Assembly: GCF_030818485.1 (NCBI RefSeq) | Contig: NZ_JAUTAJ010000002.1 | Coordinates: forward strand, 62,001 to 126,000 | DNA length: 64,000 bases | Reading direction: 5' to 3' | Source: Pseudoroseomonas cervicalis | GTDB taxonomy: Bacteria > Pseudomonadota > Alphaproteobacteria > Acetobacterales > Acetobacteraceae | Shown here: one piece after another, positions 19,630 through 37,890 of the stretch | Position numbering within the stretch: the stretch's first letter is position 1 | How the letters are laid out: every line of letters begins with the position of its first letter | Made by a program: the position numbers and the translations under genes | Notes under the pieces: model-generated | What the model was told of the DNA's origin: nothing | The model's database searches: none | What the model saw: only the letters and a program-made list of their open reading frames with translations

Positions 19630-21192
19630 ATGGTCATTTACTTCTCCGAGACCCTGCAGATCGCGATCGATTGCGTCGCCCCGCTGGGATCGCGGCAGCA
19701 CATGGTCTGCGGCTGGGTGATGACCCCGCGTGGCACGCCCTTCGACATGCGGGTGCTGGGGCCGCAGGGGCGCGAGCTGCGGCCGGCCTTCCGCCTGCTC
19801 TATGCGCGGCCGGACGTGGCCGCGCCCGACCCGCAGCTGGCGCTGGTCAGCGGCTTCACCCTGGTGGTGGAGGATGTGGCGGAGACCGCGCCGCTCGAGA
19901 TCCTGCTCGGCTCGGCCGGGGTCGGCGGCCGCATCAACCTGCGCGACGGCAGCATCAACCGCGACCTGCAGGCGGTGATCGCAGGGCAGGATTGGCGGAT
20001 CAATTTCCGCCTGCTGCGCGCGGCGCTGGAGCGCGGCGAGACGCTGCCGCTGATGCGCCACCAGTACCGCCCCTATGGCGCCTTCGCCGCCTGGCTGGCG
20101 CGGCTGCCGCTGGTCAAGCACCGGGCGGAGCATTTCGGCATCATGACGCGCATGGAATGCCTGGCCTCGCCGGCGGGGGAATACGCGCTCGGCGTGCAGT
20201 TCGGCGGCCGGCCGGAGCGGCGGCTGCAGATCGAGGTGATCGCCATCGGCGCGCTGCGCGCCGCGGATGGCGGCCCGGACGAGCTGGTGCTGCTGCCGCA
20301 GGAGGATGGCACCGTCTTCCAGGCGGCGAGCTTCGGCTGCGCCTATGGCCGCGTGCCCTCGGAACTGCTGCCGCGGCTGCGCCGCATCGAGCTGGTGGCG
20401 CAGATCGCCTTCGACGAGGAAATGCTGTGGCTGCGCGCCGAGCCGCGCGCCGAGCAGGTGCCGGGCTTCCTGGACGGGCTGGTCTCCCTGCCGGGCGAGG
20501 CGATGGACGGCTCGGTGCCGGTCGCGCTGATGCAGCAGGTGCTGGAGAGCCGCGAGCGCGGGCTGCGGCCGGCGCTGGCCGCGCTGGCCCGGGCGGCGCC
20601 GCGCGGCAGCAGCGGCCGCCCCGGCCTCGCCATCATGGTCGGGGTGGACGATCCGGGCTGCGTGCCGCTGCTCGACATCCTGGCGCCGCGCATCGAGGCG
20701 CTGTGCGGTTCGCTGCTGCTGATCGGCCAGCGGGCCGAGCAGGCGGTGCAGGTGTTCCACCGCCGCGGCCGCATCAGCGCCAGCACCGAGCGCGAGGCGG
20801 CGATCGCGCTGGGCCGCGCGGCCGAGGCCGGCGCCGCGGTGGTGCCGCTCGACCCGCTGCGGCTGGGGCGGGCGGTGATCGCGGATGATCTGGGCGCGCT
20901 CTTCGCCCACCGGCTGGAGGGGGAGGAGCTGGCGCTGCTGCGCAATCTGCACGCCGCCGCCGGTTGCAGCGCCGACCTGGCCGACAGCCTGGCGCGGCTG
21001 CTGAAGCTGCGCGAGCAGCCGGAGCAGCCCTGGCAGCCGCCGGCCCATGCCTGGCGCAGCCCGCTGGCCGCGCATCTGGTCAATGCCCATCTGGAACGGC
21101 TGTGGACCCTGCCGGCCCGCCCGGCCGCTGCCGGCGAGACCCCTGTCCCGCCTCCCCTCGCGGCCTCCCCCTCGGCCAAGGTCCCCGCCTGA
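19630..21192 (+). CDS. Glycan-locus protein of unknown function
   Basis: 520 residues from an ATG with GGGGAG six bases upstream. No signal peptide or membrane helix. The N-terminal ~110 residues look beta-rich (MVIYFSETLQIAIDCVAPLGS, HMVCGWVMTPRGTPFDMRVLG, GFTLVVEDVAETAPLEILLG) and resemble the accessory N-terminus of the 4734 and 12997 proteins in style. A middle part holds RPGLAIMVGVDDPGCVPLLDILAPRIEALCG, which could be a Rossmann-type strand-turn-helix. The C-terminus is Pro/Ala-rich. Not recognised. Its stop overlaps the next GT4 start (TGATG), so the two are coupled and likely act in the same glycan pathway. Confidence 0.7.
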   Translation: MVIYFSETLQIAIDCVAPLGSRQHMVCGWVMTPRGTPFDMRVLGPQGRELRPAFRLLYARPDVAAPDPQLALVSGFTLVVEDVAETAPLEILLGSAGVGGRINLRDGSINRDLQAVIAGQDWRINFRLLRAALERGETLPLMRHQYRPYGAFAAWLARLPLVKHRAEHFGIMTRMECLASPAGEYALGVQFGGRPERRLQIEVIAIGALRAADGGPDELVLLPQEDGTVFQAASFGCAYGRVPSELLPRLRRIELVAQIAFDEEMLWLRAEPRAEQVPGFLDGLVSLPGEAMDGSVPVALMQQVLESRERGLRPALAALARAAPRGSSGRPGLAIMVGVDDPGCVPLLDILAPRIEALCGSLLLIGQRAEQAVQVFHRRGRISASTEREAAIALGRAAEAGAAVVPLDPLRLGRAVIADDLGALFAHRLEGEELALLRNLHAAAGCSADLADSLARLLKLREQPEQPWQPPAHAWRSPLAAHLVNAHLERLWTLPARPAAAGETPVPPPLAASPSAKVPA

Positions 21193-23619: not shown

Positions 23620-25548
23620 TTACTCCGGCGCCCGCGCCGCCGTGCGTGCGCAGGCGATGACGGCCTCGCGCAGCGTGCCCACCACCAGCGGCACGCCAAG
23701 CGACTGGTGCAGCGCATCGTCCAGCGCATTGTCCGGCGCCGCCCAGAGCCCCACCATCAGCGGCAGCCGGGGCAGGCGCTGGCGCAGGCGGCGCAGCAGG
23801 TAGCGCAGATGGGTGGGCGCGCCGCGCATCTGCACGGCGCAGATGCAGGCCATGCGGGCGCCCGGCGCCTCGAAATGCCCGACGGCACGGCGGGAGACCT
23901 CGGCATAGGGCACGACCTGCGCGCCCAGCCCGTGCTTGCGCAGGATCTGGGCCAGCATGGTGGCGGAGACCTCGTCCAGCGGCCCGCGGCCGGCGATGCA
24001 GAGCACGGCGCCCTCGGCCTGCCAGGCGGGCGGGATGCTCTCGGCGGAGGGCAGCGCCATGGGGGCCGGGCGGGGCAGGCGCTGCTCGGCGCCGGAGAGG
24101 CGCAGCATGCGGCCGGCGCCATTGGCGGGGGGCGGCGGGGTGGGCTCGGAATCATCGTGCTCGTCGAGGGATTCGGCCAGCTCGGTGACGCTGTCGCGGA
24201 TGCGGTCGAGCTGCGTCGGCGTGACCAGGCCGCGCCGCACATCCGCCGCGGCGAGCGCCAAGCCCTTCAGCGCCACCTCGTCATAATAGGAGGAGAGCGA
24301 GCGCTCCTTCAGCAGGGCCTCGGCCTGTTCCTGGGCCTCGTCCGGGTCGCCGGCCAGAGCGCGCTGGTAGAAATTCTCGACCGGGGTGAGGGCCGGCCTG
24401 TCGCCCAGCAGCACGTCGAGGAATTCCAGCCGCTCGACATGGCGGCCCAGCACGACCAGGCAGAGGGTGACGGGGGTGGCGATGATCAGCCCGATCGGGC
24501 CCCAGATCCAGCTCCAGAAGATGGCGGCGATGATGACCGAGACCGGCGACATGCCGGTGGAGTGGCCATAGGTCAGCGGCTCGACCACATGCGCCGCGAT
24601 GGGCTCGACGGCCAGGAAGAGCGCGGCGGTCCAGAGCGCCATGGACCAGCCCGGATCGACCGAGGCGGCGAGGCCGATGGGCAGCACGGCGCCGAGGATG
24701 CCGCCGATGAAGGGCACGAAGCGCAGCAGCGCCGCGACCAGGCCCCAGAGCAGCGGGCTCGGCACGCCGATCAGCAGCAGGCCGAGGCCGATGACGGCGC
24801 CGAAGCCCAGATTGATGCAGAGCTGGGCCAGGAAGAAGCGGCTGAGGCGGATGGCGGCGTCGTCCATGGCCACGGTGGTGCGGTGCAGGTCGGTCGAGCC
24901 GAACAGGCGGATCAGCCGGTCGCGCAGATCCTCCCGCTGCAGCAGCACGAAGATGGTGACCACCAGCACGATGCCGGCCTGGGTCAGCGGCCCGGCCAGC
25001 GGAGCCAGGAAGGCCCGCACCATCTGCATCGGCGTCATGTCGGGGCTGTGGATCTCCACCGGCAGGGGCGGCACTGCCGCGTCGCGCGGCGGGGTGATGG
25101 AGGGCACGGGCGGTGGGGCGCGGCCGAAATCCTCGCCCAGGCGCTCGACCAGGGAGCCGATGCGGCCGATGGTCATCTGCCGCAGCGTGTCCAGCTTCTG
25201 CTGCACGGTGTGCTGGTAGAGCGGCGCGTTCTGCGCCAGCTCGGCGAGCTGGGCGCCGATCAGCGCGGCGGCGGCCAGGATGATACCCAGCGCCACCAGC
25301 ACCGCCAGCAGCACCGCGGTGATGCGCCCGACCCTGAGCCGCCGCAGCACCCGCACCAGGGGCGAGAGCACCAGGCTGAGCAGGATGGCGAGCGTGACCG
25401 GGATCAGCACCTCGCGGCCGAGATAGAGGCCGGCGACCACCACGACGCCGCCGGCCAGCGTGGTCAGGCTGCGCAGATCGGGGGCTTCGGCCGGGGCGAC
25501 CTTCGCCCTCGTCGCCGGGCCATTGGCGCGCAGCGGTGGTTCGGCCAT
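23620..25548 (-). CDS. AI-2E family (PerM/UPF0118) membrane protein with long C-terminal cytosolic part
   Basis: 642 residues. Residues ~30-400 hold the family's eight or so membrane helices: paired helices at ~30-90 (LAGGVVVVAGLYLGREVLI, VTLAILLSLVLSPLV), ITAVLLAVLVALGIILAAAALIG, a periplasmic loop, then the signature block LRFVPFIGGILGAVLPIGLAA and the late SPVSVIIAAIFWSWIWGPIGLIIATP. Usual members are ~350 residues. The extra ~240 C-terminal residues (from LLGDRPALTPVENFYQRALAG) are soluble: a helical part, an acidic/Pro linker, and an end domain with a Rossmann-like look (GAVLCIAGRGPLDEVSATMLAQILR). I believe this long form occurs in alphaproteobacteria. Transport substrate uncertain. The start at 25548 is the first ATG before the hydrophobic region. 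Confidence 0.85.
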   Translation of the reverse strand: MAEPPLRANGPATRAKVAPAEAPDLRSLTTLAGGVVVVAGLYLGREVLIPVTLAILLSLVLSPLVRVLRRLRVGRITAVLLAVLVALGIILAAAALIGAQLAELAQNAPLYQHTVQQKLDTLRQMTIGRIGSLVERLGEDFGRAPPPVPSITPPRDAAVPPLPVEIHSPDMTPMQMVRAFLAPLAGPLTQAGIVLVVTIFVLLQREDLRDRLIRLFGSTDLHRTTVAMDDAAIRLSRFFLAQLCINLGFGAVIGLGLLLIGVPSPLLWGLVAALLRFVPFIGGILGAVLPIGLAASVDPGWSMALWTAALFLAVEPIAAHVVEPLTYGHSTGMSPVSVIIAAIFWSWIWGPIGLIIATPVTLCLVVLGRHVERLEFLDVLLGDRPALTPVENFYQRALAGDPDEAQEQAEALLKERSLSSYYDEVALKGLALAAADVRRGLVTPTQLDRIRDSVTELAESLDEHDDSEPTPPPPANGAGRMLRLSGAEQRLPRPAPMALPSAESIPPAWQAEGAVLCIAGRGPLDEVSATMLAQILRKHGLGAQVVPYAEVSRRAVGHFEAPGARMACICAVQMRGAPTHLRYLLRRLRQRLPRLPLMVGLWAAPDNALDDALHQSLGVPLVVGTLREAVIACARTAARAPE

Positions 25549-25624
25549 CGGGGCAGTCTCCAGCGGGGGTTGAATCCGCTGGGCTAACGCGCCGCAGTGC
25601 AAAAAGGATATGTCTACCGGCGGC

Positions 25625-25639
25625 GTGGACTTTGCCGAC
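25625..25639 (+). repeat. Outlying iteron copy downstream of the initiator gene
   Basis: GTGGACTTTGCCGAC is the same 15-mer as the repeats upstream of the initiator gene, here 23 bp beyond its stop and upstream of the AI-2E gene. It could bind the initiator and so link origin and gene ends by handcuffing or autoregulation; that is inference. Confidence 0.6.
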
Positions 25640-25661
25640 CTCGCCCGGGCCGTTCCCGGCC

Positions 25662-26597
25662 TCAGCGCAGCAGCTTGCGCACCGGTGGGGCGGAGGGGTG
25701 CAGCAGCAGCCCGTCCGGCGTCAGCTCGACCCGGGCGTCGCGATAGACCGCCTGGGCCAGCTGCAGATTCTCGGTGAAGGCCGCCTTGAAATGCTTGCGC
25801 AGGCGGATGCCGGCGCCGAACTGGGTCGCCAGCGCCGTCCAGCTGATCAGCTTGCTGTCGTTCAGCGAATGCAGCCGGTAGGCCAGCCAGCAATAGACGT
25901 CGAGCGCCATGGAGGAGTTGCGGATGTGGCGGATCGCCGCCTCGTCCAGCGGCACGGCGTGCTGGCGCAGCTGCTGGAAGAAGCTCTCCGAGAGCCGCGC
26001 GGTCTCGACGAAGAGATCCCCCTGCCCGCCCGGCGCGTTGGGGTCGTCGACGAACATGGCGATGTCGACGATGTTCTGGTTCACCAGCACCGAGGTGCCG
26101 TTGCGGGTGAAGTGGAAGGAGAGGCGGCAGCGGCTGATGCGGTCCGCCTGCTCGCGCACCAGCTTGGTGGTCTTGCCGCCGACCGAGACGCCGAGGCGGC
26201 CCAGGAAGTCGCGCAACGAACGCCCGAGCTGCACATCGCGCGAGCCGGTGCGCAACGCCTCCGACTGCAGATAGATCAGGATCAGCCGGGCGATGGCGCC
26301 GAAGGGCACGCCGACATGGGCGGGTGCCCCATCCGGCCCCAGCCGGACACCGGGCTCGACCAGCAGGGTCAGGCTGTCGGTCTCGAGCTTCCAGATCGAG
26401 GCGTCATCCGCCGGCCGCCGGTGCGGCAGGGCGGTCTGGCACCAGCCGGAATGGATGTAGCCGATGCCGACATCCTCATCGGAGGCCCAGGAGGCCGCGG
26501 CCTCGACGATCCGCGCGCCGCGCCTGCCCTCCACCAGCTCCCGGCTGGCCTGGCGCCCATGCGTCTCGATGAGGGTGTGGACCGTGCCCATGACCAT
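25662..26597 (-). CDS. repA: Plasmid replication initiator, RepA superfamily (PF04796-like), not RepC
   Basis: 311 residues, replication initiator by family resemblance. Recognisable parts include AHVGVPFGAIARLILIYLQSEA (the conserved 'G-x-x-P-x-G-x-x-AR' segment), LGRSLRDFLGRLGV, NSSMALDVYCWLAYRLHSL and SWTALATQFGAGIRLRKHFK (a winged-helix-like DNA-binding end). This is the pattern of 'plasmid encoded RepA' proteins, shorter than and unlike RepC (~400 residues), which normally follows repA-repB. It lies downstream of repB on the same strand, separated by a 494-bp spacer full of iterons it probably binds. The start may be 26597 or 26591 (two nearby ATG codons). Family assignment is from pattern recall, fairly confident. 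Confidence 0.85.
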   Translation of the reverse strand: MVMGTVHTLIETHGRQASRELVEGRRGARIVEAAASWASDEDVGIGYIHSGWCQTALPHRRPADDASIWKLETDSLTLLVEPGVRLGPDGAPAHVGVPFGAIARLILIYLQSEALRTGSRDVQLGRSLRDFLGRLGVSVGGKTTKLVREQADRISRCRLSFHFTRNGTSVLVNQNIVDIAMFVDDPNAPGGQGDLFVETARLSESFFQQLRQHAVPLDEAAIRHIRNSSMALDVYCWLAYRLHSLNDSKLISWTALATQFGAGIRLRKHFKAAFTENLQLAQAVYRDARVELTPDGLLLHPSAPPVRKLLR

Positions 26598-26648
26598 CCG
26601 CTGCTGCTTGCCGGCCGGACATTGGCGCGGCCGGTCGCCCCTGTCGAC

Positions 26649-27045
26649 GTGGACTCTGCCGACCCAAAGCTAATTGGAAGATATTTGGTCTTAGTATTTG
26701 TATATGCCGGCAAAGTCCTCGGGATAAGGCCCGCAAGCCCTTGTTCCGTGGCGGGCCCCGGCGGCAGAGTCCACGCCGTGGCCGGCAGGGTCCACGCCGG
26801 GTGCTGTGGCCGACTCGCGGGGCGCCGCCGGAGTCGGTTTCCCGGCCTGTCGGGCGGCCCGCCGCGTGGACTCTGCCGACCCTCCACGACCTCGCCGCAG
26901 CCGTTGCAGGGCCGTTTCGCCGAGATTTTCCGCCCCTGGCGCCGCTGGCGCGCCACAGGTCGGCAAAGTCCACAGGGCTGCGCTGCGGGGCCACGCCTGA
27001 AGCACACGGCGCGGGCTGCGCCGGGGGATGGTCGCCAAAGTCCAC
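26649..27045. repeat. Iteron array, consensus GTGGACTYTGCCGAC
   Basis: Copies on the + strand: 26649-26663 and 26866-26880 (both GTGGACTCTGCCGAC). Copies on the - strand, read on + as GTCGGCARAGTCCAC: 26706-26720 (degenerate, ends TCCTC), 26760-26774, 26781-26795 (GCCGGCAGGGTCCAC), 26959-26973 (perfect GTCGGCAAAGTCCAC) and 27031-27045 (one mismatch). With the copy at 25625 this makes eight. Spacing is irregular and orientation mixed, unlike tight direct-repeat iterons of classic plasmids. Confidence 0.75.
26664..26707. other. AT-rich island inside the putative origin
   Basis: About 44 bp with roughly two thirds A+T, flanked by iterons at 26649 and 26706, in DNA that is otherwise strongly GC-rich. 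Candidate duplex-unwinding element and/or promoter of the initiator gene, which starts at 26597 on the - strand. Confidence 0.5.
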
Positions 27046-27091
27046 GCCCTGCGCCGCAGGCGAGCGGCCGCGGCGCAGGCCGGGGAGCGGC

Positions 27092-28078
27092 TCACCCCCC
27101 CTCCCCTTCGCGGAAGCTGCGATAGAGCGCGTCCAGCCGCGCCACCAGGAAACGGCCGAATTCCGGCTCCAGCCGCTCATTCACCGTCAGCCGCAGGCCC
27201 TGCGGCCCGGGCTCGATCTTCACCAGCGGGTCGCCCTGCGGGGTGCGCCACCAGGGGTCGGCCTCCACCGCCGGCTTGCCGTCGCGAAGGGCGGCGAAGA
27301 TGCGCTGGAAGCGGGCATCGCTGTTCAGCGCGCGGAAGCCGGGGCTGGCCATGGCGCGCTCGGCGAGGTCGGCCGCGCCCGCCTCGGCGAAGAGGCGCTG
27401 CAGCTCCAGCCAGCGCGGCCTGCCGGTGCGCGGCGCCGGGCCGATCGCCAGGATCACCGCCCGCGGGATGGCGCGCACCACCTGGAGGTAGCGGGTCATC
27501 TCCGCCGATTGCACGGCCAGTGCCGCATGCAGGGTCGGGCGGTCGAAGCCGCGCGCCTCCAGATGCGCGGCGAAGAGGGCGCGCTCGATGAAGGTGAGGT
27601 TGCGCCGCTCGATATTCTCCTTGCCCTGGGCCACCACCAGCTCGGCATCGGAGAGCGCGCGGATCACCGCCTTGATCGGGATGCCGAGCCGCTTCACCGC
27701 CAGCAGGCGGCGATGCCCATAGGCCATCTGGTAATGGCCCGGCTTCTCCGGGTGGGGCCGCACCAGCACCGGTACCTGCTGGCCGGAGCCGGCGATGCTC
27801 TGCACCAGCTCGGAAAGCTCCGCCTCGCTGTCGCCGGCGATCCGGTCGGCGACGAAGGAGGCCTCGACGAAAGCGGGGTCGAGCGCCACCACCGTCTCGC
27901 CGCCCTCGACGCGGGCGCGCAGCGCCTCCGCCTCCTCGCGCAGCTGGCCGAGGCTGAGGCCCATGGCGCGCACGGCGCCGGAGGGGACGCGGGCGGTGGC
28001 CGGGGCGGGTTGCGGCTCGGCCATTTCCTCGGCCGGGCCGGCGCCGAGCAGGCGCTTCAGCGTGTCCTTGCGGCTCAT
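27092..28078 (-). CDS. repB: Plasmid partition protein RepB (ParB family)
   Basis: Centromere-binding protein of the partition system. 328 residues, opening with MSRKDTLKRLLG, the hallmark start of RepB from repABC replicons (binds RepA). The ParB nuclease-like/CTPase domain is at ~90-170: GQQVPVLVRP, the CTP-binding GHRR at 121-124, and ENIERRNLTFIE at 154-165. A helix-turn-helix region follows (LHAALAVQSAEMTRYLQVVRAIP), then a C-terminal dimerisation part. The start overlaps the repA stop by 4 nt (TCAT on the + strand), so the two are coupled. Its likely target is the palindromes at 29346 and 29405, upstream of repA. Confidence 0.92.
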   Translation of the reverse strand: MSRKDTLKRLLGAGPAEEMAEPQPAPATARVPSGAVRAMGLSLGQLREEAEALRARVEGGETVVALDPAFVEASFVADRIAGDSEAELSELVQSIAGSGQQVPVLVRPHPEKPGHYQMAYGHRRLLAVKRLGIPIKAVIRALSDAELVVAQGKENIERRNLTFIERALFAAHLEARGFDRPTLHAALAVQSAEMTRYLQVVRAIPRAVILAIGPAPRTGRPRWLELQRLFAEAGAADLAERAMASPGFRALNSDARFQRIFAALRDGKPAVEADPWWRTPQGDPLVKIEPGPQGLRLTVNERLEPEFGRFLVARLDALYRSFREGEGG

Positions 28079-29274
28079 CGGGCGGCGCGGCCCCAGGCCT
28101 GGGCGACCAGCTGGCGGACCTCGCCATTCACCGAATCCAGCGCCTCCGCCGCGCGGTTGTAGGTTTCGCGGCTGAAATTCTGCGGCCCCACCTCATAGAG
28201 GGTCTGCTTGGTCAGCCCGGCATCGGAGATGGCGGTCGATTTGATCATCGGATTGGTCAGCACCCGCTCGCCGAACAGGCTGCGCAGGAAGCCCACCACC
28301 TGGGTCTGGGGGCCGTCCTGCGGCTCGTAGCGGGTGACCAGGTAGCGCAGGAAATCATAGTCGAGCCGCCCGCCGGCCTCCCGCACCACGGAGAGAAGAT
28401 CGGCCGTCATCAGCAGGAACTGGCACATGCTGGCGATGTCGAGCATCTGCGGATGCACGGTGATCAGCACGCCCGTCGCGGCGCAGAGGGCGGCCAGCGT
28501 CAGGAAGCCCAGCTGCGGCGGGCAGTCGATGACGACGATGTCGTACTCCGCCTCGACGGTGGCCAGCGCCTCGGTCAGGCGGGTGAAGAACAGCGTCTCC
28601 TTGGCCCGCTCGGATTGCGCCAGCATGCGCGGCGTGTCGTGCTCAAATTCGTGCAGCTCCAGATTGGCCGGCACGATGTCGAGGCCGGCGATATAGCTCG
28701 GCCGGATCACCTCGCGCAGCGGGCGGCGCTGCCTGTCGTAGCGCAGCGCCGCGTAGAGCGTCTCATTCTCCCCGATATCCAGCTCCGGCTGGTAGCCGAA
28801 CAGGGCGGAGAGGCTGGCCTGCGGGTCGAGGTCCAGCGCCAGCACCCGGTGGCCCTGGAAGGCCAGGTACTGCGCCAGATGCGCGGCCGTGGTGGTCTTG
28901 CCGGAGCCGCCCTTGAAATTGGCCACCGCGATGACCTGGAGGTGCTCGCCCTCCTGCCGGCGCGGCGGGGCCTGGCGGTTCTTGCCCTTGAGCAGGCCGC
29001 GCAGCGCATGGATCTGCTCCAGCGTATAGGCGCGGCGGCCGCCGGGGCCTTTTTCCGGCACCGGGCCTTCCCCCGCCAGGGCCAGCTGGCGCAGATAGGA
29101 ATCGCTGATGCCGAGCAGATGCGCGACCTCGCCGCTGGAGAAGCGGCGCAGCGTCTTCTGCGCGGCGGGGGGGAAGATGCGGTTGCGGAGCAGGGCGAGC
29201 TGGGCGCTGAGCGCCCGCGCATCGGCGCCGATGCGCTGGTCGATCGGCTCCGGCGCGGCGGTGGTGGCGGACAT
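28075..29274 (-). CDS. repA: Plasmid partition ATPase RepA (ParA family, N-terminal helix-turn-helix)
   Basis: ATPase that moves replicon copies apart and, in repABC systems, represses its own operon. 399 residues. Residues ~40-100 are a MerR-like helix-turn-helix (FSSGEVAHLLGISDSYLRQLALAG, RRAYTLEQIHALRGLL). The deviant Walker A KGGSGKTT is at 121-128, the Walker A' region LDLDPQASLSALFG follows, and the Walker B-like IVVIDCPPQLGFLTLAAL. The C-terminal TNPMIKSTAISDAGLTKQTLYEV and TYNRAAEALDSVN are characteristic of the RepA branch. It is first in the repA-repB unit. The 217 bp upstream carries two parS-like palindromes, consistent with autoregulation. Named repA in the repABC sense, distinct from the initiator. 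Confidence 0.93.
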   Translation of the reverse strand: MSATTAAPEPIDQRIGADARALSAQLALLRNRIFPPAAQKTLRRFSSGEVAHLLGISDSYLRQLALAGEGPVPEKGPGGRRAYTLEQIHALRGLLKGKNRQAPPRRQEGEHLQVIAVANFKGGSGKTTTAAHLAQYLAFQGHRVLALDLDPQASLSALFGYQPELDIGENETLYAALRYDRQRRPLREVIRPSYIAGLDIVPANLELHEFEHDTPRMLAQSERAKETLFFTRLTEALATVEAEYDIVVIDCPPQLGFLTLAALCAATGVLITVHPQMLDIASMCQFLLMTADLLSVVREAGGRLDYDFLRYLVTRYEPQDGPQTQVVGFLRSLFGERVLTNPMIKSTAISDAGLTKQTLYEVGPQNFSRETYNRAAEALDSVNGEVRQLVAQAWGRAAR

Positions 29275-29345
29275 GGCCGACGCTTTTCTCCGAAAAAGAG
29301 GCTTTTCGGCGTTAGCACAACGCTGCTGCGTCGACTACAGACCTT

Positions 29346-29367
29346 GCCGTTGACAGCTGTCAACGGC
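29346..29367. promoter_or_regulatory. parS: parS-type centromere palindrome 1
   Basis: A perfect 22-bp palindrome whose central 20 bases are CCGTTGACAGCTGTCAACGG. Its 16-bp core GTTGACAGCTGTCAAC fits the published repABC parS consensus GTTNNCNGCNGNNAAC at every fixed position. It lies 72 bp upstream of repA. Expected RepB binding site. Confidence 0.8.
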
Positions 29368-29404
29368 GCCGTGACGGTTCGCGGCGTCGGCCAGCGATGC
29401 GCGC

Positions 29405-29422
29405 CATTGACAGCTGTCAATG
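29405..29422. promoter_or_regulatory. parS: parS-type centromere palindrome 2
   Basis: A perfect 18-bp palindrome CATTGACAGCTGTCAATG. It shares the 14-bp core TTGACAGCTGTCAA with the first palindrome but has A/T instead of G/C at the outer consensus position. Centres of the two sites are 57 bp apart, about five and a half helical turns. Confidence 0.7.
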
Positions 29423-29490
29423 CGCGCTGCCCTTGTCCCGCCCAAACCTCATGCGACATGCGGCGTTGGAGGCACGGAATTGACCTGTCG

Positions 29491-30507
29491 ATGAGAAGCC
29501 TGATCCTGCTGGCCGGCACGCTGCTGCTGGCCCTGCCCCCCATCCCGCCCGCGCTGGGCCGCGATGCGCCCGCCGCCCCCTCCCAGGCCGCCGCGCCCGG
29601 CGTCGGCGCGCTGGGGCGGGTCGAGCCCGCCTCCCGCATCCGCCGCATCGGCGCGCCGGGCGGGATGAACGTCACCCGCCTGGGCCGGCTGCTGGTCGAG
29701 GAAGGCCAGCGCGTCGAGGAAGGCGCGCTGCTCGCGGAACTGGCCGATGCGCCGCAGAAGGAGGCGCAGCGCCAGCGCGCCGCCGCCGCCCTGGCCGAGG
29801 CCGAGGCGCGGCTGGCCCTGATGCAGGCCGCCGCCCGGCCGGAGGAGATCACGGCGCAGCGGGCGCGCCTCGCCGGGCTGCGCGCCGAGGCGGAGAATGC
29901 CCGGCGCGAGGCGGCGCGCGCCGAACGCCTGGTGCCAAGCGGTGCCGGCGGCCAGGCCGAGGCCGAGCGCCGCCGCTTCGCCGCGCTGCGCGCCGAGGCC
30001 TCGCTGGCCGAGGCCGAGGCCGAGCTGGCCAGGCTGCAGAGCCCGCGCCCCGAGGATGTCGCCATGGCCCGCGCCCAGCGCGACGCGGCGGCCGCGGATG
30101 CGCGGGCGGCCGAGGCCGAGCTGGAGCTGGCCCGCATGCGCGCACCGATCGCCGGCACCATCCTCACCCTTTATGTCCGGCCCGGCGATCCGGTGGGCAA
30201 TGACGGGCTGCTCGACATGGCGGATCTGGAGCGCATGGATGTGGTGGCCGATGTCTATGAGACCGACCTGCCGCGCCTGCGCCTCGGCCAGCGGGCGGAG
30301 GTGCTGGTGCCCGGCCATCCGGAGCGGCTCGGTGCCACGCTGCGCGAGATCGGCTGGCAGGTGCGCCGCACCACCCAGGCCGGCACCGACCCGGTCGCCG
30401 CCGTCGATGCCCGCACCGTGCCGGTGCGGCTGACGCTGGACGCGGAAGGCGCGGCGCTGCTGGCGCGGCGCTCCAACATGCAGGTGCAGGTGGCGATCCG
30501 CCCATGA
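29491..30507 (+). CDS. HlyD/DevB-type periplasmic adaptor of an ABC exporter
   Basis: Membrane-fusion protein linking an inner-membrane ABC exporter to the periplasm. 338 residues with an N-terminal signal or anchor helix (SLILLAGTLLLALPPIPPALG), a first lipoyl half (GALGRVEPASRIRRIGAPGG), a long Ala/Glu/Arg helical hairpin (~85-215), the second lipoyl half (ARMRAPIAGTILTLYVRPGDPV) and a beta-barrel part (LERMDVVADVYETDLPRLRLGQ). This is the DevB family pattern. The stop overlaps the permease start (ATGA). ATG 29458 is an alternative start. It is divergent from repA, with the parS palindromes in between. Confidence 0.88.
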   Translation: MRSLILLAGTLLLALPPIPPALGRDAPAAPSQAAAPGVGALGRVEPASRIRRIGAPGGMNVTRLGRLLVEEGQRVEEGALLAELADAPQKEAQRQRAAAALAEAEARLALMQAAARPEEITAQRARLAGLRAEAENARREAARAERLVPSGAGGQAEAERRRFAALRAEASLAEAEAELARLQSPRPEDVAMARAQRDAAAADARAAEAELELARMRAPIAGTILTLYVRPGDPVGNDGLLDMADLERMDVVADVYETDLPRLRLGQRAEVLVPGHPERLGATLREIGWQVRRTTQAGTDPVAAVDARTVPVRLTLDAEGAALLARRSNMQVQVAIRP

Positions 30508-36455: not shown

Positions 36456-37151
36456 TCAGCCGCGGCGCGAGAGCTGGGCCTCGATCTGGCGCAGCCGGGT
36501 GTCGACCGCTTCCAGCTCCTCCGCCAGCCGGTCGCGCCGCAGCGCCAGGCGGCGCTGCTCCTCCCGCAGCGCCGCGCGGTCCGGCCGGGCGGGGGAGGGG
36601 GCCTCCGGCACGGTGCGGCGCAGCTCCAGGATTTCCCGGCGTGTCACATCCGGGCGGATCAGCCCGCGTTCCCGGGCCAGCCGCAGCTGCCCATCGCTCA
36701 GCAGGGTGATCTGATAGGCCGTGCCATAGGAGCCGGGGCAGTCCTGCTGCGGCAGCCGGCCGGATTCCACCGCGCGGGCGATCTGCCGCAGCTGCGTCGC
36801 CGTGGCGTCGGAGAAGGGGAAGATGCGCTCCGTGCCCTGGCGCAGGCGCTGCATCTCGGCCCGCGTCAGGCTCTGTTCCAGCGCCAGCAGGGCGCGGCCG
36901 ATGGCCAGGAAGCTGTCGCGCGCATCGGCCCACTCCTTGCGGATCTCGGCGCGGATGCGCAGCATCTGCCGCAGCTTGGCCGGGTTGTCCGGCAGCTCGG
37001 TGCCGGCGAAGACGCTGCGGATGGCCTCCAGCCCCTCCGCCTCCTCCGCCGCCAGCCCCTGCAGCGCCGTCGCGCGCGGATCGGCGGGGGGGGCTTCCTC
37101 CTCCTGCGCCAGGAAGGCGCGCAGCGCGCTTTTCGATCGCTTGCCGCTCAC
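36456..37151 (-). CDS. Unknown partner of the second ParA, possibly ParB-like or DUF3102-like
   Basis: 231 residues from a GTG (37151) that overlaps the parA stop (GTGA). Family not recognised. The N-terminus SGKRSKSALRAFLAQEEE is basic then acidic. The middle RKEWADARDSFLAIGRALLALEQSL and FPFSDATATQLRQIARAVESGRLP resemble DUF3102-type proteins found beside ParA on plasmids. YGTAYQITLLSDGQLRLARERGLI could be a helix-turn-helix-like part. The C-terminal ~60 residues (RAALREEQRRLALRRDRLAEELEAVD) are a strong coiled coil. By position it should be the DNA-binding or adaptor partner of the ParA, but a centromere-binding role is inference. Confidence 0.7.
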   Translation of the reverse strand: MSGKRSKSALRAFLAQEEEAPPADPRATALQGLAAEEAEGLEAIRSVFAGTELPDNPAKLRQMLRIRAEIRKEWADARDSFLAIGRALLALEQSLTRAEMQRLRQGTERIFPFSDATATQLRQIARAVESGRLPQQDCPGSYGTAYQITLLSDGQLRLARERGLIRPDVTRREILELRRTVPEAPSPARPDRAALREEQRRLALRRDRLAEELEAVDTRLRQIEAQLSRRG

Positions 37152-37807
37152 AGCCCGGCCTCCCGCTTCACATAGGCCCAGACCTCCTCGAAGGGCGCGA
37201 TGCCGCGCGACTTCGAATAGTCGAGCAGGGTGAGCCCCTTGGCCGCCGGCACATGCACATCCTCCAGTTGCGGCAGTTCGGTCGGGCAGACCGGGCCGGC
37301 CTTCACCAGCAGGCCGCGCATGCGGGCATAGGAGGTGGTGCGGCGATTGGCGCGGTTCAGCACCACCGAGGCGCGCCGGCCCTTCTCCGCCAGGCTGCGC
37401 AGCCAGGGGGCGACGCTGTCGATGTCGTCCTGGGTGCAGATGGCCGGTACCAGGATCAGGTCGGCGGCTTCGCCCAGCGCGTCGATGGCTGGCAGATGGT
37501 CCTCGACGCTGGGCGGGGTATCCAGCACGGCCAGGCGATACCCCGCCGCCTGGCGCAGCGCGCCGCGCCAATCCTGCAGGCTGGCCGGCTGCACGGGGAC
37601 GGCGGCAAAATCCGGGAAGGCTTCCCGCGTGCGCTCTCGCCGCGCCGCCCATTTGGCCAAGGTCTGCTGCCTGTCGAAATCCAGCCCGAGGACCGGCAGG
37701 CCTTCCTGGGCGGCGGCCACCAGCAGATGCCGGCTGAGCACGGATTTGCCCGAGCCGCCCTTGGGCGAGGAGACGAGGATGATGCGCGGTGCCGGGGTGC
37801 GAGCCAT
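37148..37807 (-). CDS. parA: Second ParA-family ATPase (short form, no helix-turn-helix)
   Basis: 219 residues, without the N-terminal DNA-binding domain of the RepA at 28075. Deviant Walker A KGGSGKS at 16-22 (PKGGSGKSVLSRHLLVAA), then VLGLDFDRQQTLAKWAARR (Walker A'), and AVLDTPPSVEDHLPAIDALGEAADLILVPAI as the Walker B-like strand. It belongs to the short ParA/MinD-like group used by type Ib partition, but also by systems that position non-DNA cargo. The downstream partner overlaps by 4 nt. A 22-bp perfect palindrome starts 61 bp upstream and is a candidate operator and centromere. Confidence 0.9.
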   Translation of the reverse strand: MARTPAPRIILVSSPKGGSGKSVLSRHLLVAAAQEGLPVLGLDFDRQQTLAKWAARRERTREAFPDFAAVPVQPASLQDWRGALRQAAGYRLAVLDTPPSVEDHLPAIDALGEAADLILVPAICTQDDIDSVAPWLRSLAEKGRRASVVLNRANRRTTSYARMRGLLVKAGPVCPTELPQLEDVHVPAAKGLTLLDYSKSRGIAPFEEVWAYVKREAGL

Positions 37808-37868: not shown

Positions 37869-37890
37869 GGAATTAGACATGTCTAATTCC
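37869..37890. promoter_or_regulatory. 22-bp perfect palindrome upstream of the second parA
   Basis: The central 20 bases are GAATTAGACATGTCTAATTC, and one more G-C pair completes the 22-bp palindrome. It is AT-rich in a GC-rich setting, 61 bp upstream of parA and 15 bp beyond the iclR stop. It is unrelated to the TTGACAGCTGTCAA sites of the repA-repB system. Candidate binding site for the parA partner protein. Confidence 0.65.

Follow-up and report, generated by a model that had tools for sequence, protein, structure and literature searches.

What replicates a plasmid on which the partition genes of a repABC operon are followed by an initiator gene of another family? This question is raised by a three-gene module of Pseudoroseomonas cervicalis, which lies at 87.6-91.4 kb of a 450,223-bp contig (C2) and was analysed within a stretch of 64,000 nucleotides (hereafter the window). 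All three genes already have a RefSeq annotation, on a plasmid of this species. The first-pass annotation read the module as a swap that kept repABC-type segregation and changed replication control; it noted that classical repABC replicons have their origin inside repC and no iterons, which holds for p42d in the part of PMC3155836 that deals with this plasmid. Our sequence analysis indicates that the plasmid is probably segregated by repABC-family genes and replicated from a different, repeat-bearing origin.

Results

The partition genes are of the repABC type

RepA matched TIGR03453 with 630.3 bits (cut-off 348.45) and, at its N-terminus, the MerR-type family PF00376 with 30.3 bits (cut-off 28.2). 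RepB, which starts with MSRKD, matched TIGR03454 with 347.8 bits (cut-off 201.5), and the two genes overlap by 4 bp. Upstream of repA, a known place of parS in repABC operons, lies the sole perfect GTTN4GCN4AAC palindrome of the contig (Table 1). It agrees with the parS consensus GTTNNNNGCNNNNAAC and has the same sequence as the experimentally tested parS_BC of Paracoccus pAMI4 (both in the parS passages of PMC9040568). Moreover, a search of the window for TTGACAGCTGTCAA at up to 2 mismatches returned only two perfect palindromes 5' of repA (29350 and 29407; shuffled sequences, 0.05). The window and all of L065-L072 share this sequence ahead of repA, and 5 of the 9 loci have it twice. The repABC assignment made by the first-pass annotation is thereby supported. 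Another ParA-like gene lies 8 kb from the module, and RepAB therefore need not be the sole partition system.

Table 1. Features of the module (window coordinates)
Feature	Position	Strand	Remarks
iteron 8	25625..25640	+	exact; downstream of rep
rep	25662..26597	-	RepA_C replication initiator, 311 aa; PF04796
repB-rep spacer, predicted oriV	26598..27091		494 bp; iterons, AT tract, GANTC cluster
iteron 7	26649..26664	+	inverted, exact; adjoins rep; GANTC at 26652
AT-richest 60 bp of spacer	26668..26727		candidate melting region; overlaps iteron 6
iteron 6	26705..26720	-	3 mismatches
iteron 5	26759..26774	-	2 mismatches; GANTC at 26767
iteron 4	26780..26795	-	2 mismatches
two GANTC sites outside iterons	26812..26835		at 26812 and 26831
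iteron 3	26866..26881	+	inverted, exact; GANTC at 26869
iteron 2	26958..26973	-	exact
iteron 1	27030..27045	-	1 mismatch
repB	27092..28078	-	ParB-type centromere-binding protein, 328 aa; TIGR03454, PF07506, PF02195
repA	28075..29274	-	ParA-type partition ATPase, MerR-like N-terminus, 399 aa; TIGR03453, PF13614, PF00376
parS	29349..29364		GTTGACAGCTGTCAAC; palindrome, upstream of repA
second parS-like palindrome	29406..29421		ATTGACAGCTGTCAAT

The protein in the place of RepC is a RepA_C initiator

Rep matched PF04796 with 92.5 bits (5e-26; cut-off 26) and gave no match to PF03428 (RepC) in the profile search, which agrees with the proposal that it belongs to another initiator family. It had no match in NCBIfam, and its best match among solved structures had an E value of 0.59. 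An AlphaFold model built with 9 close sequences reached a mean pLDDT of 40 and was set aside. In RefSeq, the start codon assigned to the homologous rep lies two codons further in (309 aa), which would give a spacer of 500 bp. With tblastn, 906 plasmid records gave a match, all but one of them below 60% identity.

PF03428 had 0 matches at E <=0.001 in the whole assembly, and PF04796 had a single match on C2. PF10134, PF01051 and Bac_DnaA had none on this contig; the one assembly match of PF10134 is on C1 and that of Bac_DnaA on C4. Thus neither a RepC match nor a second initiator of these families, the two finds that would tell against a substituted initiator, turned up on C2.

The spacer between repB and rep carries iterons and a predicted origin

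The iteron-bearing spacer described by the first-pass annotation was found between the two genes with the length given there. The 16-bp iteron GTGGACTYTGCCGACC (<=3 mismatches) occurs nine times in the window, eight of them around rep (shuffled sequences: mean 1.21, maximum 4). The eighth lies downstream of rep, so that the gene is bracketed by iterons. Most of the seven in the spacer stand at kept places in relatives, with largely conserved spacing; iteron 3 is absent from 4 of 8 relatives (L069-L072). The spacer has 72% GC and its AT tract 62% AT. Its few blocks conserved among relatives comprise iterons, the AT tract and short flanks, and the rest is poorly conserved. Iterons that exceed chance beside rep and are conserved, together with an AT-rich region, are features of a RepA_C iteron replicon, whereas a repABC replicon would have its origin inside the initiator gene and no iterons. 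DnaA boxes, a further feature of such replicons, were absent from 10 spacers at <=1 mismatch to TTATNCACA, and a scan of 25400-29600 called 0 sigma-70-type promoters and 0 terminators.

We searched the region between repB and rep for the control RNAs of repC. Neither ctRNA (RF00489) nor the S-element (RF00490) was detected with Rfam in the window at E <=5 or in 4 relatives at E <=1. One or both elements were recovered in 4 of 7 control loci given as repABC and both were missed in 3, so the search might overlook a ctRNA that has diverged; L095 is among these controls and carries a "repABC" label in the trees, though RepC queries found none there. Antisense control of the RepA_C initiator, as in repABC, by a ctRNA too diverged for Rfam would fit those three misses, but the poor conservation of the spacer outside iterons, AT tract and short flanks, and the lack of a match to either family at relaxed thresholds, make it improbable.

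The spacer is the densest GANTC cluster of the contig

GANTC sites, the targets of CcrM, are denser in the spacer than anywhere else on C2 and lie partly inside iterons. At least three GANTC sites stand upstream of rep in 66 of 85 RepA_C rep genes, the window included. Such a cluster at a predicted origin is what a CcrM-marked origin would present, and we tentatively suggest, with somewhat less than even confidence, that RepA_C iteron origins of Acetobacteraceae are gated by CcrM in the cell cycle. Passage of the fork would set the methylation state of the GANTC sites in and between the iterons, and this state would license binding by Rep, or opening, once in each cycle.

The GANTC peak also bears on whether the module is the active replicon at all. 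It might be a remnant, or a fused plasmid might carry it as one of two replicons, with the origin elsewhere and rep a passenger. The GC-skew curve of the contig reaches its minimum at 36.4 kb and its maximum at 153.6 kb; these turning points lie away from the module and give an origin there no support, and skew was dropped as an origin marker. The second ParA-like gene and the existence of multi-replicon plasmids (L107 carries repAB, RepA_C and repC on one plasmid) point the same way. Against this, the contig has no other initiator among the five families searched, none of the three genes is broken and 9 of 9 relatives keep them, the iterons are conserved, and the GANTC peak falls in the spacer itself. 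We regard a remnant or fused replicon as very improbable.

The pairing of repAB with RepA_C is recurrent

The order repA-repB-rep is kept in 9 of 9 close loci (L002 and L065-L072; L073, which came up as a ninth locus in the RepB scan with a match to just a part of the ParB domain, was excluded). Among 120 genomes of Acetobacteraceae, 11 repABC-type repA loci were counted: 5 have a RepA_C gene as neighbour, with two orientations represented, and 1 has RepC; in the class sample, each of the remaining two repA loci is followed by RepC. The synteny comparison that the first-pass annotation proposed thus bears the pairing out. In unrooted trees, RepA and RepB fall in a clade among repABC-type proteins (exact neighbours are weakly supported for RepA), and repAB + RepA_C loci are scattered over the trees.

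These data separate two parts of the proposed module swap. RepAB stands beside a replication half of another type (PF04796, iterons, AT tract), but a single event looks unlikely, because trees and neighbourhoods pair repAB with RepA_C in several places and orientations. By sequence comparison, an iteron replicon brought together with a repABC-type partition cassette is as good a description as a replaced repC. The reverse order, in which repAB was first paired with RepA_C and RepC was a later arrival, would suit the family counts, and the unrooted trees give no direction. However, RepA_C initiators are widespread, beside other partition genes or none (within the 4.5 kb displayed, 8 of 11 sampled plasmids lack an annotated repAB), the paired loci are scattered, and RepC follows repA in the two class-sample loci; an ancestral pair is therefore unlikely.

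Other loci show the halves in different company. L077 has the iteron of the module and a Rep 69% identical to that of the module, yet its RepA is 42% identical and its RepB 33% (over half of its length). L164 and L169 have Reps 79-80% identical and the same iteron, with no RepAB within about 9 kb. No partner gene of repAB was identified at L078, L079, L080, L083 and L093; at L078 one ORF beside repAB has no Pfam match. Matches of the reference query RepAC_L028 were left out of the gene-neighbour scan (wrong reading frame), and RPA_L001, of doubtful frame (495 aa vs an open frame of 414), supports no claim.

At least three exact TGGACT cores stand beside rep in only 32 of 85 RepA_C loci, so the core is not universal. 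Iteron tails within one genome were unlike in 20 of 20 pairs, only one of which exceeded 70% identity of Rep; in between-genome pairs with similarly unlike Reps (below about 70% identity), the tails differ about as much. The tail as a selected compatibility code was therefore rejected, selection being unsupported.

Discussion

Taken together, the sequence data show a genuine hybrid that recurs, in which a repABC partition cassette is coupled to an iteron replicon. A 450-kb plasmid or chromid of a Roseomonas/Pseudoroseomonas-type bacterium very probably has its basic replicon here, with a repABC-type partition cassette (parS doublet, repA and repB) stably fused to an independent iteron replicon (iterons, AT tract, rep and a further iteron). 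We propose that Rep binds the 16-bp iterons, opens the AT tract beside its own gene and is limited by iteron titration or pairing, replacing RepC and its antisense RNA. RepB would bind parS upstream of repA, while RepA would separate the copies and repress the operon.

If gating by CcrM holds, the Alphaproteobacteria would have in these origins a counterpart to the Dam-dependent iterons of Vibrio chromosome 2, and the ability of an iteron origin to replace RepC without loss of cell-cycle control would be accounted for. The GANTC clustering thus offers a direct test of the cell-cycle ties of alphaproteobacterial iteron plasmids.

More generally, our analysis suggests that the partition cassette of repABC plasmids acts as a portable centromere unit, one that works with an initiator of another family as well, and the replication and partition machinery of plasmids looks like a set of exchangeable parts. 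Plasmid typing by repA alone would consequently mis-file such replicons as repABC. As parS and the iteron tail are two separate compatibility addresses that have been recombined, incompatibility might be predictable from either.

That repAB genes can lie away from repC has already been stated in print (PMC2783167, in the relevant passage). The pairing of repAB with RepA_C was not met in the portions of the literature searched (e.g. PMC9025767, PMC3832669, PMC10645730, PMC12375680). Compared with repABC replicons such as Rhizobium p42d and Paracoccus pAMI4, the module shares repA, repB, their order and overlap, and the parS sequence; the TTGACAGCTGTCAA palindrome also has the form of repABC parS (parS sections of PMC5613091 and PMC9040568). 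The module differs in lacking RepC and a detectable ctRNA or S-element, in having iterons, and in that its predicted origin lies outside the coding sequence. In reshuffled RepABC modules (A2B2C1, Martelella pMM259), partition pair and initiator are likewise of different origin and the palindrome travels with repAB (PMC5613091, in the part on these modules), but the initiator there is still RepC, whereas here both its family and the type of control are different. The Acetobacteraceae RepA_C replicon pGOX2 has the same initiator family (rep 49% identical) and fewer than three TGGACT cores beside rep; unlike the module, it carries a ParA-family gene and no repB there. Chimeric Pseudomonas replicons (REx-C/REx-R) also consist of exchangeable modules, although control and replication modules are exchanged there, and partition and replication modules here (PMC5304414, as far as its account of these replicons goes). 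Finally, the origin of Vibrio chromosome 2 (RctB 12-mers, Dam sites) has methylation sites inside iterons and an AT tract, as here (PMC6090056, origin section); its initiator is different, its sites are GATC for Dam instead of GANTC for CcrM, and methylation dependence in the present module is hypothetical.

Results

A repABC-type partition pair joined to a RepA_C initiator

The first-pass annotation had proposed that the module combines repABC-type repA-repB genes with a RepA-superfamily initiator, and profile searches bear this out (table below); the rep protein gave no match to the RepC profile PF03428. The module is a genuine hybrid replicon. It lies on C2, a contig of 450,223 bp in a five-contig assembly of 4.89 Mb; the window spans C2 positions 62001-126000. 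The top match in the plasmid collection was pL11-A (Pseudoroseomonas cervicalis, circular, 388,753 bp), with 91.3% identity across the 24 kb compared, and its RefSeq annotation lists repA, repB and "replication protein RepA" in the same order.

Features of the module and of a second ParA-like locus (window coordinates)
Feature	Position	Strand	Description
repA	28075-29274	-	TIGR03453, 630 bits; MerR-type N-terminus
repB	27092-28078	-	TIGR03454, 348 bits; overlaps repA by 4 bp
rep	25662-26597	-	PF04796, 92.5 bits
repB-rep spacer			494 bp
parS palindrome	29349		GTTGACAGCTGTCAAC; upstream of repA
parS-like palindrome	29406		ATTGACAGCTGTCAAT; upstream of repA
Second ParA-like ATPase gene	37148-37807	-	PF01656, 46 bits
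Perfect 16-bp palindrome	37872-37887		ATTAGACATGTCTAAT; just upstream of the second ParA-like gene

Neither RepC (PF03428) nor PF01051 had a match anywhere in the assembly, PF10134 and Bac_DnaA had one each (on contigs C1 and C4, respectively), and PF04796 had three, one apiece on C2, C3 and C5. Therefore, among these five families, rep is the single initiator on C2, and the search for a second one left the proposal standing. The cumulative GC skew of C2 turns at 36 and 154 kb, away from the module, which counts against the module as the replicon's own engine. The second ParA-like gene and its palindrome are possibly a second partition locus; in pL11-A, a hypothetical protein gene comes next after the ParA gene.

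Distribution and history of the pairing

A scan for close RepB relatives returned nine loci, eight of them full relatives (L065-L072), and the repA-repB-rep order is kept in all nine loci formed by these eight and pL11-A. The hybrid is ordinary within its own clade, where its genes are already annotated one by one.

A sample of 120 genomes of the family held 11 repABC-type repA genes in 9 genomes (E up to 1e-100), whose positions were matched to those of RepA_C and RepC genes by eye. A RepA_C gene lay within 6 kb of five, collinear in three (C2, G006:C127 and G091:C128) and convergent in two (G006:C122 and G067:C9). RepC adjoined one (G107, upstream of repA), and neither initiator was near the other five, some of which are on short contigs. 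At L090 and L091, where the RepA match is weaker, repC lies downstream, and both other repA loci in a class-wide sample of 142 genomes have RepC behind. Adjacent repAB was found in 3 of the 11 named RepA_C plasmids inspected (H1 collinear, H16 convergent, H20 divergent), and H20 additionally carries repC.

An Acidiphilium multivorum plasmid (L107) combines three elements in a stretch of 10 kb, namely repAB in divergent orientation, a RepA_C initiator and repC, and may represent an intermediate stage in the exchange of modules. L081 (G107:C49) places a same-strand repC upstream of repA-repB, opposite to the usual order; an Acuticoccus plasmid (L093) and L078, L079, L080 and L083 carry repAB pairs with no recognised initiator adjacent. 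Genome G006 has 14 RepA_C matches, and offers a natural test set for how many RepA_C replicons can share one cell.

In trees of RepA (33 rows), RepB (31 rows) and Rep (27 rows), the nine-row clade of the window and L065-L072 was starred for RepA (100/100) and RepB (100/99), falling among repABC-type proteins on both. Support for the neighbours closest to it is weak on the RepA tree (35/30) and better on the RepB tree (93/85), where they are L074, L076 and L082. RepA_C-paired loci occupy more than one place on these two trees, each of which needs three changes of the collinear label. On the Rep tree, the nearest relatives are L164, L169 and L077; no RepAB was found in about 9 kb near the rep genes of the first two, and the partition genes of L077 are only 42% and 33% identical to the window's. 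Judging from these trees, in which many deeper branches are weak, repAB and RepA_C appear to have been paired several times.

Iterons

The spacer had been described as iteron-bearing, and it is: the 16-bp iteron GTGGACTYTGCCGACC (at most 3 mismatches) occurs eight times around rep: the spacer holds seven copies, which face both ways, and the eighth lies downstream of the gene. There is one extra match at 21102, and shuffled windows average 1.21 matches (maximum 4). What is conserved in the spacers of ten loci (window, pL11-A and L065-L072) is chiefly the iterons, along with a short AT tract roughly 130-70 nt ahead of rep and a handful of flanking bases; one of the seven iterons is absent from L069-L072. 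Among 85 RepA_C loci (window, eight close relatives and 76 others), the TGGACT core occurs at least four times in the flanks of 31 (shuffles, 0.05 loci), and the three-prime half of the iteron differs from plasmid to plasmid. An iteron consensus, which needs at least three copies, was reached by 32.

CcrM sites in the spacer

GANTC, the CcrM methylation site (PMC11514494), is the most avoided of 16 like-form gapped palindromes on C2 by first-order expectation (0.27); by third-order expectation it scores 0.64, and TCNGA and TGNCA are lower. The five GANTC of the spacer nevertheless form the densest 494-bp stretch on C2 (P = 2e-4, with the rate of other intergenic regions as reference). The nine clade spacers contain 51 GANTC where the remainder of each locus predicts 3.2, a ratio that none of the other 15 motifs reaches; composition-keeping shuffles of the same spacers predict about 12. 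Taken singly, L072 shows no significant excess.

Three of the five sites in the window's spacer lie inside iterons (C-variant GTGGACTC). Of 225 TGGACT copies, 104 are followed by C and 93 by T, so it may be that the iteron just tolerates both pyrimidines at this place. With iterons masked, 21 sites remain in the nine spacers, and the iteron consensuses of L074, L075 and L104 contain no GANTC, with upstream counts of 4, 7 and 7. At least three GANTC lie within 600 nt upstream of 66 of 85 rep genes (loci not independent, window included); 8.8% of random stretches reach that number. For the 76 non-clade loci, GANTC density is 7.8 per kb upstream and 1.5 elsewhere (ratio 5.2); TANTA reaches a higher ratio (6.8), as expected of an AT tract. 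With every GGACT masked, GANTC density still stands at 6.1 per kb.

Six annotated repABC loci have 1-3 GANTC per repB-repC gap (~200 bp), repABC origins are described as GANTC-rich in one report (PMC6090056), and another reports that the repABC of Agrobacterium chromosome 2 is controlled in a GANTC-dependent manner (PMC11514494). Therefore, we infer that the exchanged origin, too, may be under CcrM control. Possible methylation gating of the CcrM-site iterons is the point worth bench work.

Comparison with known repABC systems

Rfam models of the two repABC control RNAs (ctRNA, RF00489; S-element, RF00490) had no match in the window or in four of the eight relatives (L066, L067, L071, L072), and found at least one RNA in only 4 of 7 control loci (L097, L098, L099 and L100; not L095, L096 or L101).

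The parS palindrome is the sole perfect GTTN4GCN4AAC palindrome on C2, its 14-mer has no further copy there with at most one change, and it equals parS_BC of Paracoccus pAMI4, studied experimentally (PMC9040568). Its frame recurs in repABC-type loci as GTTGCCAGCTGGCAAC (L098), GTTGTCAGCTGACAAC (L097), GTTGGGAGCTCCCAAC (L096, L099, L101) and GTTCTCAGCTGAGAAC (L100), with identical letters in a Shinella plasmid (L094); no palindrome was found in repABC-type L093 and L095 or RepA_C-paired L077 and L104. Rhodobacteraceae compatibility groups are described as marked by the RepABC palindromes TTAACAG/CTGTTAA and TTCACAG/CTGTGAA, mostly adjacent doublets (PMC5613091); the window has TTGACAG/CTGTCAA. 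In its architecture, the hybrid counts as a variant within the modular repABC family already known.
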